Assembly (NCBI RefSeq): GCF_000711295.1
Contig: NZ_JOMJ01000004.1
Span: forward strand, 248,001 to 312,000
Direction: 5' to 3'
Length of the DNA stretch: 64,000 bases
DNA from: Desulfohalovibrio reitneri
Lineage (GTDB): Bacteria; Desulfobacterota; Desulfovibrionia; Desulfovibrionales; Desulfovibrionaceae
The notes beneath the pieces were generated by a model. It was not told the DNA's origin. It was given only the letters and a program-made list of their open reading frames with translations, and ran no database searches. Shown piece after piece: positions 40,069 through 43,687 of the stretch (position 1 is the stretch's first letter; the number at the start of each line of letters is the position of its first letter). The position numbers and the translations under genes were made by a program.

Positions 40069-40629
40069 ATGCACGAGACATCCCTGGGCGGCTCCATTCG
40101 CGATTACCTCACCGGTGAGGAGACACCCAACACCACCTACGAGGAGATGCGCCAGGCACTTGCCAAGCTCATGGTGGAGGAGCGCGGCTATCCCAAGGAC
40201 CGCCTGCGCCCCAAGGTGGGAGTCTCCTTCGAGATTGACGGCGGGAATTTCTGCCGGGTGGTGGACCTGGTGGTCGAGGACGAGTCCGGCCGTCCCCTCC
40301 TGGCCGTGCTTTTCTGTTCCGGCATCCCCGGCACCTACACCCGCGAGACCCTGGCCTCGGCCCGCCTTCTGCCCGACGGTCCCGTCCCCTTGGCCCTTGC
40401 CACCGACACCATGGACGCCGTGCTCCTCAGCGTGCCGGACGGGAAGGAACTCGGCACCGGCATGGACGCCCTCCCTCGCTGGGAGGACCTGCCCGCTCTG
40501 GCCCAGGGCCGGGACACCTCCCCGCTCTCCGAAGACCGCGCCCAGCGCGAGCGCCGAATTCTCTACGCCTACTCCGAAATGCTCTCCTCTTGCTGCGAAT
40601 CCACCTGCTGCCCTCTGCCTGGTCGGTGA
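40069..40629 (+). CDS. HsdR N-terminal-like domain protein, catalytic residues apparently lost
   Basis: A 186-residue protein resembling the type I restriction HSDR_N_2 domain (PF13588): MRQALAKLMVEERGYPKDRL (27-46) and RVVDLVVEDESGRPLLAV (63-80) are characteristic. In active members the stretch after PLLV reads E-x-K (PD-(D/E)xK nuclease core). Here the aligned residues are Leu81-Phe82-Cys83, while Asp66 is kept, so nuclease activity is doubtful. The C-terminus has a Cys cluster (SSCCESTCC). CGGAGGG precedes the ATG. No HsdM or HsdS gene is nearby. A giant palindrome begins at its stop codon. Confidence 0.75.
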   Translation: MHETSLGGSIRDYLTGEETPNTTYEEMRQALAKLMVEERGYPKDRLRPKVGVSFEIDGGNFCRVVDLVVEDESGRPLLAVLFCSGIPGTYTRETLASARLLPDGPVPLALATDTMDAVLLSVPDGKELGTGMDALPRWEDLPALAQGRDTSPLSEDRAQRERRILYAYSEMLSSCCESTCCPLPGR

Positions 40630-40744
40630 CCGTCGAGGTCGCCCCCTGGCTTCGTTGCTTCGGAGGGCGCAGGGGCGGGCCGTACGGGGGTACTGTCCCG
40701 CCCCTGCGCCCTCCTTGCGCCTCGCCAGGGAACGACCTCGACGG
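40630..40744. repeat. 115-nt three-stem palindrome
   Basis: Outer stem CCGTCGAGGTCG with its complement at 40733-40744 (12 bp), middle stem CCCTGGC/GCCAGGG (7 bp) and inner stem GGAGGGCGCAGGGGCGGG with its complement at 40697-40714 (18 bp); the loop contains GTAC-GGGG-GTAC. In all, 37 perfect pairs. It begins at the stop codon of the HsdR_N-like gene. No T-tract follows on either strand, so it is not a simple intrinsic terminator. Confidence 0.85.
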
Positions 40745-40804
40745 CCTGATTCACGCGTCAGTGCGCGGGGCTCGTCCGTCCAGGGGGACGGACATCGCGA
40801 AGAG

Positions 40805-41105
40805 GGGGTGGGCGCTTGCGCGCGCATGGGAGTGGGCGGGAGGATTCCATCTCCGGGGAGATGTAATGGGGAGTGGGGCGCTTGCGCGCGCCCGGGAGAA
40901 AGAACTGCGCAAGCAGGGCTGCTGGCGCGACGCCCTGGGTGGACGCTTGTGCGCACCTGGGAGTAGGCGGGAGTTTTCCATCTCCAGGGGGATGTTACTG
41001 GGAGTGGGCGCTTGCGCGCGCCCGGGAGAAAGAACTGCGCAAGCAGGGGCGCTAGCGCGAAGCCCTGGGGGAGCGCTTGCACGCGCCCGGGAGAAAGAAG
41101 GCATG
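40805..41105. repeat. Tandem array with 65-bp period, alternating unit types
   Basis: Five copies of a core GCGCTTGCGCGCGC (or close variant) start at 40812, 40878, 40943, 41008 and 41073, i.e. every 65-66 bp. Units alternate: type A carries a CATCTCC/GGAGATG hairpin (CATCTCC/GGGGATG in the second A), type B carries GCTTGCGC/GCGCAAGC and CAGGG/CCCTG stems. The order is A-B-A-B-partial. The gap from 40630 to 41237 holds this array, the palindrome before it, and no gene. Frames through it are Arg/Ala-rich artefacts. Confidence 0.85.
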
Positions 41106-41237
41106 TCTTTGGGTGGAGTTAACGTGGTAACTGCCCTGGCAGGGGGTCTGCGCGCGCTCGGGGGGAAGAAAGTGGCTATCCCCATGAGGAAGGGGGGAAA
41201 TCTCGCTGGTCGTCGGGCGGAGTTGTTCCGCCCGCTT

Positions 41238-41588
41238 TCAGGCCTGCAGTTTGGCGGCCAGGGTTTCCAGTTCGTTGGGTTCGTGGTCGGTCTGGTCGTC
41301 GGCGTAGAGGAGCTGGCGCATGAAGAAGGGGCTGTCCACGTCCAGGGCGGCCTTGCCGCGTTTGGCCATGGACACCACCGCCTCGCGCACGCGCTGACGT
41401 TCCGGAGCGGGCAGTTTTTCCACCAGGCCGTCCAGCCTCGAGGGCAGGGAGGTCAGCAACTCGGCTTTCTTTCGCAGTGCTTGGCGGTGGCCTTGCAGGT
41501 CGCCCACGGCCGCCAGCTTTCCAGCGTCGGCTTCCAGGTCGCGGATTTCCCTGGCCGTGTCGGTCAGCAGGTCTTTTACGTCAGACAT
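41238..41588 (-). CDS. Hypothetical helical protein downstream of a PAS kinase (116 aa)
   Basis: Soluble, almost wholly helical protein: LLTDTAREIRDLEADAGKLAAV (5-26), then QALRKKAELLTSLPSRLDGLVEKLPAPERQRVREAVV. No motif recognised. The ATG follows GGAGGAG and lies 8 bases inside the end of the histidine kinase gene, so it is coupled to it. It may be a partner or regulator of that kinase (inference). Confidence 0.65.
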   Translation of the reverse strand: MSDVKDLLTDTAREIRDLEADAGKLAAVGDLQGHRQALRKKAELLTSLPSRLDGLVEKLPAPERQRVREAVVSMAKRGKAALDVDSPFFMRQLLYADDQTDHEPNELETLAAKLQA

Positions 41589-42732
41589 GGCTCTCCTCCA
41601 TTCGCCTGGGCAGGTCGATGGCAAAGCGGGTGCCGTCCTCCTCCGTGGAGGTGAAGAAGACCCTGCCGCCCAGGTATTTTTCGCCCAGCAGTTTCATGCC
41701 GTAGGTTCCCAGGCCCCGTCCGCCACCCTTGGTGGAGAAGGAGCGCTGGAAGATGAGCAACTGGTCGTCCTCGGGAATGGCCGTTGGATTGCGCACTTCA
41801 AAGCGCACCCGGCCCTCGTCCGTCACGTCGCACGAGGCGGTCACGGTCGCGCCCTCATACTCCGCCTCCAGGGCGTTCTTGATCATGTTCTCCACCACCC
41901 GCTTGAGCAGTACCGAATCGGTGCGGATGGGGTCGGGGCAGCCGTTTTCCACCAGAAGCTCCTTGCCCGCCGCCAGGTCGGAGCGGTTGTAAATCCTGGC
42001 CACGCCGGAAAGCAGGGTGCCGGGGTCCACGTCATGCGGGTTGATCTGCAATTCCCTTTGCTCCGCGGCCAGCAGGTCCTTTTGGGCCAGGATCTCCTCC
42101 ACCATTTGCTCGAAGTAGTCGGACAGCAGGCGGGCGTCCTCGCCAAGGTTGGGCGGTGCGTCCTCGCGCAGCATCTGGATGAGCCCCCGGATTCCCGAAG
42201 CGGAATTGAGGATGTCGTGGAAGAATACCCGCTCCAGGGCGCGGCGGCGCTTCTCTCCGGAGATGTCCTGCACATGGAACAGGGTGTAGATCTCGTCGGC
42301 CACCTCCAGGGGCTTGGTGGTGACAAGCAGGTCCATGGCCTCCATGTCGTCCCCCTCGCTCCGGGTCAGGCGGCATTCGCGGGTGCATTCCCGGCCGGAC
42401 AACCCCTCCATGATAGCCTGGGCCGCACCGCAGTGGCGACAGGCCTCGGCCGTGCCGCAGCCCCCGGGGGTCTCCTTGCTGCGGGGGCAGCCCAGCACCT
42501 CGCCCGGCCGCGAGCCGAGCAGCTTCCGCACACCCTCCGGACCAAGAGCCTTCTCGAACGCCTTGTTGGCAAAGACTATCTGGCGGTATGCGTTGAGGAT
42601 GAAGATGATGTTGGGCAGGGAATCGAGGATCAACCGCAACTCGGTCTCCCCCACGACGCGGGCTTGCCGTTGGATTTCAGCCTCGCCCAAGCGTTCGGGC
42701 GGCAGGAAGGCGGTTTCAGGGGTGGTGGTCAT
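41581..42732 (-). CDS. PAS-domain sensor histidine kinase with a Cys-rich PAS
   Basis: A 383-residue cytoplasmic kinase. A PAS domain (about 30-155) contains a Cys cluster: Cys82, Cys92, Cys98, Cys101 (CRHCGAAQAI), Cys116 and Cys120 (CTREC). A DHp-like helix with His172 (VFFHDILNSASGI) and an HATPase domain follow (N box NMIKNALEA near 287; GRGLGTYGMKLL near 344; FSTKGGG before it). No membrane segment. Cys-rich PAS domains of this pattern may bind metal or an iron-sulfur cluster and sense redox state, but the ligand is unknown. No response regulator adjoins it. Confidence 0.88.
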   Translation of the reverse strand: MTTTPETAFLPPERLGEAEIQRQARVVGETELRLILDSLPNIIFILNAYRQIVFANKAFEKALGPEGVRKLLGSRPGEVLGCPRSKETPGGCGTAEACRHCGAAQAIMEGLSGRECTRECRLTRSEGDDMEAMDLLVTTKPLEVADEIYTLFHVQDISGEKRRRALERVFFHDILNSASGIRGLIQMLREDAPPNLGEDARLLSDYFEQMVEEILAQKDLLAAEQRELQINPHDVDPGTLLSGVARIYNRSDLAAGKELLVENGCPDPIRTDSVLLKRVVENMIKNALEAEYEGATVTASCDVTDEGRVRFEVRNPTAIPEDDQLLIFQRSFSTKGGGRGLGTYGMKLLGEKYLGGRVFFTSTEEDGTRFAIDLPRRMEESHV

Positions 42733-43150: not shown

Positions 43151-43687
43151 TCAATCGCAGCAGCGCACGGTCATGGCGGTGCCGCACATGGTCTTGCCGA
43201 TGGTGGCCGTGAGACAGCGCGCCTCCTTTCGCACTTCAAAAGGCACCGTGATGCGCGTCTTGCCCCAGGCGGAACTGGAGAGCATGAGCCGCCCCTCGGC
43301 GGCGTAGCTGTAGAAGTCGTGCGTGTCCGATGCGTAGAAGGCGCTGAAGACGTACACGTCGTTGACCTCGCGAACGAAATTGTAGTCCGGCGGGGTCTTG
43401 CAGGTCACGGCGGCCAGGGCTTTCTGGGAAAGGCAGCGCAGCAGCTTTTCGGGTGAGAAGGGCGGCTCCCCGTCGCGTATGCGGGGTGGCTGCTGCATGG
43501 GAAGCGGGGCCAGGCTTCCCGGTCCCGGCGCTGTGGCGTTGCCCTGGGTCGCGTTTCCCTGCGTCGCGTTGCCTTCCCGCAGGGGGAAGGGCACTTCCGG
43601 TCCGGCCTCCCCGTTTTCCTGACCAAAGGCCGGGACGGCGGCCAGCAGGAGAACGAGCACAAGGGACAGAAGCGGCAGGCGGCGCAT
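43151..43687 (-). CDS. Exported Cys-containing hypothetical protein (178 aa)
   Basis: Signal peptide at residues 1-21 (ends AFGQ). The mature N-terminus has a repeat of Asn-Ala-Thr-Gln-Gly units and a Pro-rich stretch. The C-terminal domain contains five Cys (LLRCLSQ, VTCKTPP, EARCLTA, TMCGTA, VRCCD counting the last as a pair), suggesting disulfides in the periplasm. The start overlaps the stop of the upstream 67-aa gene in ATGA. No family recognised. Confidence 0.65.
   Translation of the reverse strand: MRRLPLLSLVLVLLLAAVPAFGQENGEAGPEVPFPLREGNATQGNATQGNATAPGPGSLAPLPMQQPPRIRDGEPPFSPEKLLRCLSQKALAAVTCKTPPDYNFVREVNDVYVFSAFYASDTHDFYSYAAEGRLMLSSSAWGKTRITVPFEVRKEARCLTATIGKTMCGTAMTVRCCD

Follow-up and report, generated by a model that had tools for sequence, protein, structure and literature searches.

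Dispersed palindromic repeats have been described from bacteria in several forms. REP/BIME repeats and REPINs include GTAG- and CGTC-tagged REPs (PMC2817692, PMC3733652, PMC3116915), and by the REP/RAYT definition the palindrome is 20 to 40 bp long and bears an unpaired tag, GTAG or CGTC, at one of its ends (PMC3733652). Surveys of stem-loop repeat families near gene 3' ends have covered 40 genomes (PMC1590033, PMC2267715). For Geobacter, "multicopy nucleotide sequences" have been described, as have 24 "predicted short RNA elements" with GRCGTAGCGCTGCTACGCC at their centre (PMC2700814, PMC2996986).

Here, we analyzed a 65-bp-period array in a 64,000-nucleotide stretch of DNA from Desulfohalovibrio reitneri (the window). 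The array is the tail of a palindromic head and not a stand-alone feature, and its units are lineage specific, being confined to this genome. In our judgment it is probably the 3' tail of a compound, noncoding, dispersed palindromic element of REP/BIME-like layout, most likely without any specific function of its own.

The element lies in a gene-free gap of 608 bp between two stop codons (40630 to 41237), exactly as the first, sequence-only reading of the window had described. Its features, in window coordinates, are as follows.

40069 to 40629, plus strand: gene 5' of the palindrome, with an HSDR_N_2 domain (Pfam PF13588, E 7e-7); its TGA stop codon (40627 to 40629) adjoins the palindrome
40630 to 40746, plus strand: element head, a long palindrome and member of the KTCGTTGC/GCGCCTMGC family, based on inverted repeats, own-genome copies, covariance model R1 (64.6 bits) and pair counts
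40651 to 40662, plus strand: 5' conserved box, TTCGTTGCTTCG
40662 to 40714, plus strand: variable inner stem with the conserved loop region CCGTACGGGGGTACTGTCC; 18-bp arms at 40662 to 40679 and 40697 to 40714; two-sided changes at 13 of the 27 pairs of helix 2
40714 to 40725, plus strand: 3' conserved box, CTTGCGCCTCGC
40770 to 40806, plus strand: alpha hairpin module of the tail, GCTCG followed by GTCCGTCC(AGGG)GGACGGAC (40774 to 40793) and ATCGCGAAGAG
40806 to 41099, plus strand: reported array of beta units, with A1 at 40806 to 40877, B1 at 40876 to 40940, A2 at 40937 to 41008, B2 at 41006 to 41070 and half unit B3 at 41071 to 41099
40905 to 40938, plus strand: 34-bp insert in B1, with 1 mismatch to a TPR gene at C4:220780-220813
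41035 to 41068, plus strand: B2 copy of the 34-bp TPR-gene insert, with 3 mismatches
41142 to 41170, plus strand: sixth core, degenerate, 79% to the unit
41238 to 41624, minus strand: downstream convergent gene at the far end of the 608-bp gap, without a Pfam match

Cores had been reported at 40812, 40878, 40943, 41008 and 41073, and all five are present, at spacings of 66, 65, 65 and 65 bp. They do not form a single recurring sequence, since only three of the five carry the exact 14-mer and those at 40943 and 41073 are mismatched; the degenerate sixth core had been overlooked. TRF called the array at 40806 to 41093 with a period of 130 bp (2.2 copies, score 427) and also with the reported period of 65 bp. 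The layout is thus A-B-A-B-half B plus a worn sixth core, with 83% identity between A1 and A2 and 92% between B1 and B2. Self-identity of the array reaches 0.60 at a lag of 130; the highest value obtained from 500 dinucleotide shuffles, at any lag from 20 to 199, is 0.48. Frames crossing the array have no Pfam match, and on this basis we rejected a coding array. Elsewhere in the window, a short tandem repeat with a 15-bp period (2.5 copies) lies at 43536 to 43573.

A genome-wide search for the units had been proposed as a check. When the region was searched against its own genome, the array and the upstream palindrome together proved to be a single compound element, dispersed through the 3.39-Mb genome in about eight copies, the units sitting within these copies. 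The earlier reading had placed the palindrome correctly ahead of the array, but as a separate neighbor, when it is in fact the head of the same element. Likewise, "repetitive" was apt in its suggestion of a repetitive ncRNA, but a selected RNA structure is unsupported on the gene-sense strand (see below). The copies with tail sequence lie at the following positions.

C4:288630 (the window copy), C4:368534, C3:1778237, C3:2084234, C3:2325493 and C3:1739379: copies with tail sequence
C3:1469935: a more diverged tailed copy
C3:1781295 and C3:2374843: partial tailed copies

The exact core 14-mer occurs 11 times in the genome, each time within a copy of the element. In these copies, a head palindrome with the outer arms GGCCGTCGAGGTTGCCCCCTGGC and GCCAGGGAACAACCTCGACGGCC is followed by the alpha module (GCTCG, a paired stem and ATCGCGRRGAG, the conserved flanks enclosing a stem that varies from copy to copy) and then by a variable number of beta modules, each consisting of a hairpin, its loop of the TTGC type, and then GGRAGA. 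Head, alpha and beta are common to the copies, while tail length and the inserts between beta modules vary. Four further heads in this genome (L114, L117, L119 and L120) differ in their arms and lack this kind of tail. The copy at C3:1739379-1739556 (minus strand) has lost the inner stem and loop of its head and retains the outer arms and tail.

A 19-base unit pattern with one mismatch allowed matched seven times in this genome. Across 118 other genomes of the family it gave only single one-mismatch matches, in four genomes; the one of these matches that was read, L215, lies in coding-like sequence without an array. The sequence-only reading would have counted wide occurrence of neutral GC-rich units against itself; the units are widespread only inside their own genome. 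We regard it as very improbable that the array is nothing more than a neutral GC-rich tandem repeat whose link to the head is due to chance. Such a repeat would agree with the GC-rich, noncoding and not excessively folded character of the array, but it is disfavored by the linkage of tail and head, since every exact core in the genome lies in the tails of one head subfamily and the alpha and beta modules are common to the copies.

The heads have a precise position. In this genome, 12 of 13 begin 0 to 40 nt past the stop codon of a co-oriented gene, the exception being C4:368534, which is preceded only by a 55-amino-acid frame ending inside the head. A symmetric test on 59 heads from seven other genomes found 21 with only an upstream co-oriented gene end within 60 nt, 3 with only the opposite arrangement, 2 with both and 33 with neither (21 versus 3, one-sided sign test, 1.4e-4). 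Six of these genomes were informative; in G067 all 14 heads fell into the "neither" class, no open frame having ended near them. Some stop codons fall within the head arm. The placement statistics come from this symmetric design, and the initial gene calls around 70 loci, which are unreliable in GC-rich DNA, were not used.

Judged from conserved motifs and predicted folds, the head belongs to a widespread, little-described palindrome family present in several phyla. Its boxes, KTCGTTGC and GCGCCTMGC, are conserved, whereas the inner stem is variable yet perfectly paired. The two-box pattern was found in 70 stretches of named genomes, among them Omnitrophota, Elusimicrobia, Verrucomicrobia, Planctomycetota, several delta- and other proteobacterial groups, and others. 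Most but not all of these fold with a lineage-specific outer stem, small internal loops holding the boxes and a variable inner stem; some (e.g., L098, L104 and L105) look like chance matches without palindromic arms. Of 148 genomes in the phylum, 40 had heads by a covariance model search; among the best-match loci listed, most read as members, and a few (e.g., L128 and L132) not obviously so. Neither the window region nor 18 head loci matched Rfam 15 at the gathering score, and a known RNA family was rejected accordingly. No viral contig carried the strict head pattern, and three carried a looser one. Two further arrangements were also seen: in Pseudodesulfovibrio (L039:3360-3720), tandem heads follow one stop codon, and the QHPW and QHNT loci of Verrucomicrobia (e.g., L056, L072 and L095) have near-identical heads that remain alike over at least 120 nt of upstream sequence, a greater length than other lineages show. 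Similarity in most other lineages stops about 30 to 50 nt past the boxes, so the tail is no part of the wider family.

Different lineages have differing arms and the same boxes, and the arms themselves change in concert. Among six heads of this genome, 18 pairs have changed on both sides; in the inner helix, 13 pairs show two-sided and none one-sided changes, without G-U intermediates. Within the boxes, K (5' box) and M (3' box) covary across phyla as a non-Watson-Crick pair in the internal loop (alignment A2, columns 20 and 96; T/C 17, G/A 12, other 4; Fisher 4.8e-6, uncorrected for relatedness). One-sided changes in subfamilies elsewhere, read on the gene-sense strand, gave G-T at 9 and A-C at 20 positions (p 0.06), counted against the subfamily consensus because an uncorrected count is confounded by shared ancestry within subfamilies. 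There is thus no sign of wobble tolerance on this strand, and with no G-T excess we rejected selection on a sense RNA. The pattern of arm changes fits either DNA-level copying of the arms onto each other or selection on a DNA hairpin and is proof of neither. The head palindrome may have a role at the DNA level; no enzyme that mobilizes it and no protein that binds it was found.

The inserts of the array tell a further part of its history. The claim that there are no unique spacers holds inside the array, where the inserts between cores recur, but the inserts are unrelated between genome copies, and that of the B units copies a gene: 33 of its 34 bases are identical to the TPR-repeat gene at C4:220780 (L002:1501-1534), 68 kb from the array. 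As B1 departs from the gene by 1 change and B2 by 3, the TPR piece was most likely copied before the 130-bp duplication. When seven other tails were searched against the genome, no match of comparable strength turned up outside copies of the element, and we rejected the idea that tails commonly capture genes. The 34-bp copy is nevertheless a small natural case of a repeat array capturing a short ectopic sequence.

Taken as a course of events, the explanation we favor would run as follows. A head, an imperfect palindrome of about 117 bp that presumably was mobile in the past, would have come to sit directly past a stop codon, pointing the same way as the gene before it. Short GC-rich hairpin modules ending in GGRAGA would then have accumulated, in this lineage, in the DNA 3' of one head subfamily, the tail growing by replication slippage or template switching. 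The 34-bp piece of the TPR gene would have been copied into B first, and the A-B pair in the window would then have been duplicated in tandem (130 bp). At most, the array would lend structure to the upstream transcript in its 3' untranslated region.

The strongest competitor, which we nonetheless hold to be unlikely, is that the tail is a functional 3'-untranslated-region RNA, whose hairpins and single-stranded GGRAGA linkers would titrate an RNA-binding protein (for example, as a CsrA-type sponge) or shield the upstream mRNA at its 3' end. The co-oriented placement of the element in the 3' untranslated region speaks for such an RNA, and its modules retain structure: 93% of cells in the alpha modules are paired, with two-sided changes at 3 of 8 pairs, and the beta modules of several copies keep a hairpin followed by GGRAGA. 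We count this retained pairing against our own no-function reading, because a purely neutral repeat need not keep pairing. The minus strand, opposite to the upstream gene, also folds better than dinucleotide shuffles across the array (z of -4.25), and this too weighs against that reading. On the plus strand, however, folding is ordinary, and stability is not in excess of the shuffles (z of -1.0 for the array and -1.5 to +1.3 for single units). The CATCTCC/GGGGATG hairpin with its G-T pair does exist, but a single G-T pair in one repeat is weak evidence that it has been kept. Further against a functional RNA, no promoter-like site was found at the window element, tail sequence and length vary widely among copies, and the preponderance of A-C over G-T positions in the head family runs opposite to the trace expected from selection on a sense RNA.

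Next in rank, and in our estimation improbable as well, is that head and tail form one DNA-level mobile element, with hairpins recognized in single-stranded form by a putative transposase and the tail modules serving as recognition or cleavage sites. The precise, oriented position at stop codons, arms that change together without G-U intermediates, the combination of constant boxes with different arms between lineages and the tandem heads of L039 all speak for it. Template switching without transposition can also give arm agreement, however, and the tails, missing from most other lineages, are not required for spread. The RAYT (Y1 transposase, PF01797) is absent from the D. reitneri genome. 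Among 10 other genomes with heads, 7 do have it, but heads flank none of the 18 Y1 loci fetched from other hosts, and the closest is about 1.7 kb from one of these loci.

A CRISPR-like array or phage-sensing decoy is scarcely credible: a repeat-insert layout and one insert copied from a gene would suit it, but that gene is a chromosomal TPR gene, further genome-matching inserts are absent from the other tails, the units are only 83 to 92% alike with inserts duplicated along with them, and viral and phage matches are lacking. Indeed, the tail unit and the 3' arm of the window head are absent from 2.9 million viral contigs, and the whole region matched nothing in phage and plasmid collections; the decoy proposed earlier finds no counterpart there, and carriage of the region by a phage, plasmid or virus was rejected. 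Integron attC sites are recognized by core sites of the consensus GTTRRRY / RYYYAAC. The 5' box reads GTTGCTY and departs from that consensus, and attC was rejected on its core sites.

The array itself is of local and modest interest, and the head family is of more. The head is recurring bacterial noncoding DNA that Rfam lacks; its internal boxes are shared by organisms of several phyla, and it keeps strictly to one position and one orientation at the ends of genes. A mobile head would amount to a miniature element moved by an enzyme yet to be found; a head retained by selection would be a 3'-end signal in wide use. Tentatively, and with rather more doubt than confidence, we suggest that heads could represent an unclassified class of DNA hairpin elements, spread over several bacterial phyla and inserting or kept directly past stop codons in gene orientation, with fixed internal boxes, freely changing and co-converting arms and a putative recognizing factor. 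The window copy would then show that such an element can seed an array and pick up a fragment of a host gene.

How, then, does the element compare with described repeats? Like REP/BIME repeats, it consists of noncoding intergenic palindromes, mostly 3' of genes, in a mosaic with other repeats; palindromic units together with alpha and beta modules, dispersed between genes in several copies, make up a BIME-like mosaic. Unlike a REP, the head measures about 117 bp as opposed to 20 to 40 bp, occurs in about a dozen copies as opposed to hundreds, and has no unpaired terminal GTAG or CGTC, the CGTC of its outer arm being paired. Given the missing tag, a genome without Y1 and the lack of flanking heads, we rejected both REP/RAYT membership and mobilization by a RAYT. 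Heads in several other genomes resemble bidirectional intrinsic terminators in that an A-run precedes their core stem and a T-run follows it, whereas the window element has no terminator-like site: a search of 40400 to 41400 for a GC-rich hairpin followed by a T-run returned none, and an intrinsic terminator was rejected. With the surveyed stem-loop families (PMC1590033, PMC2267715) the element shares the character of stable, repeated stem-loops enriched just past stop codons. The Geobacter families are likewise dispersed intergenic palindromes in related bacteria. One head, L042, contains the exact 19-mer GRCGTAGCGCTGCTACGCC between its two boxes; of 12 other loci with this 19-mer, one passes the strict box test, and L247 is also a head by eye. 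Some members of the Geobacter families (PMC2700814, PMC2996986) may well belong to the head family.
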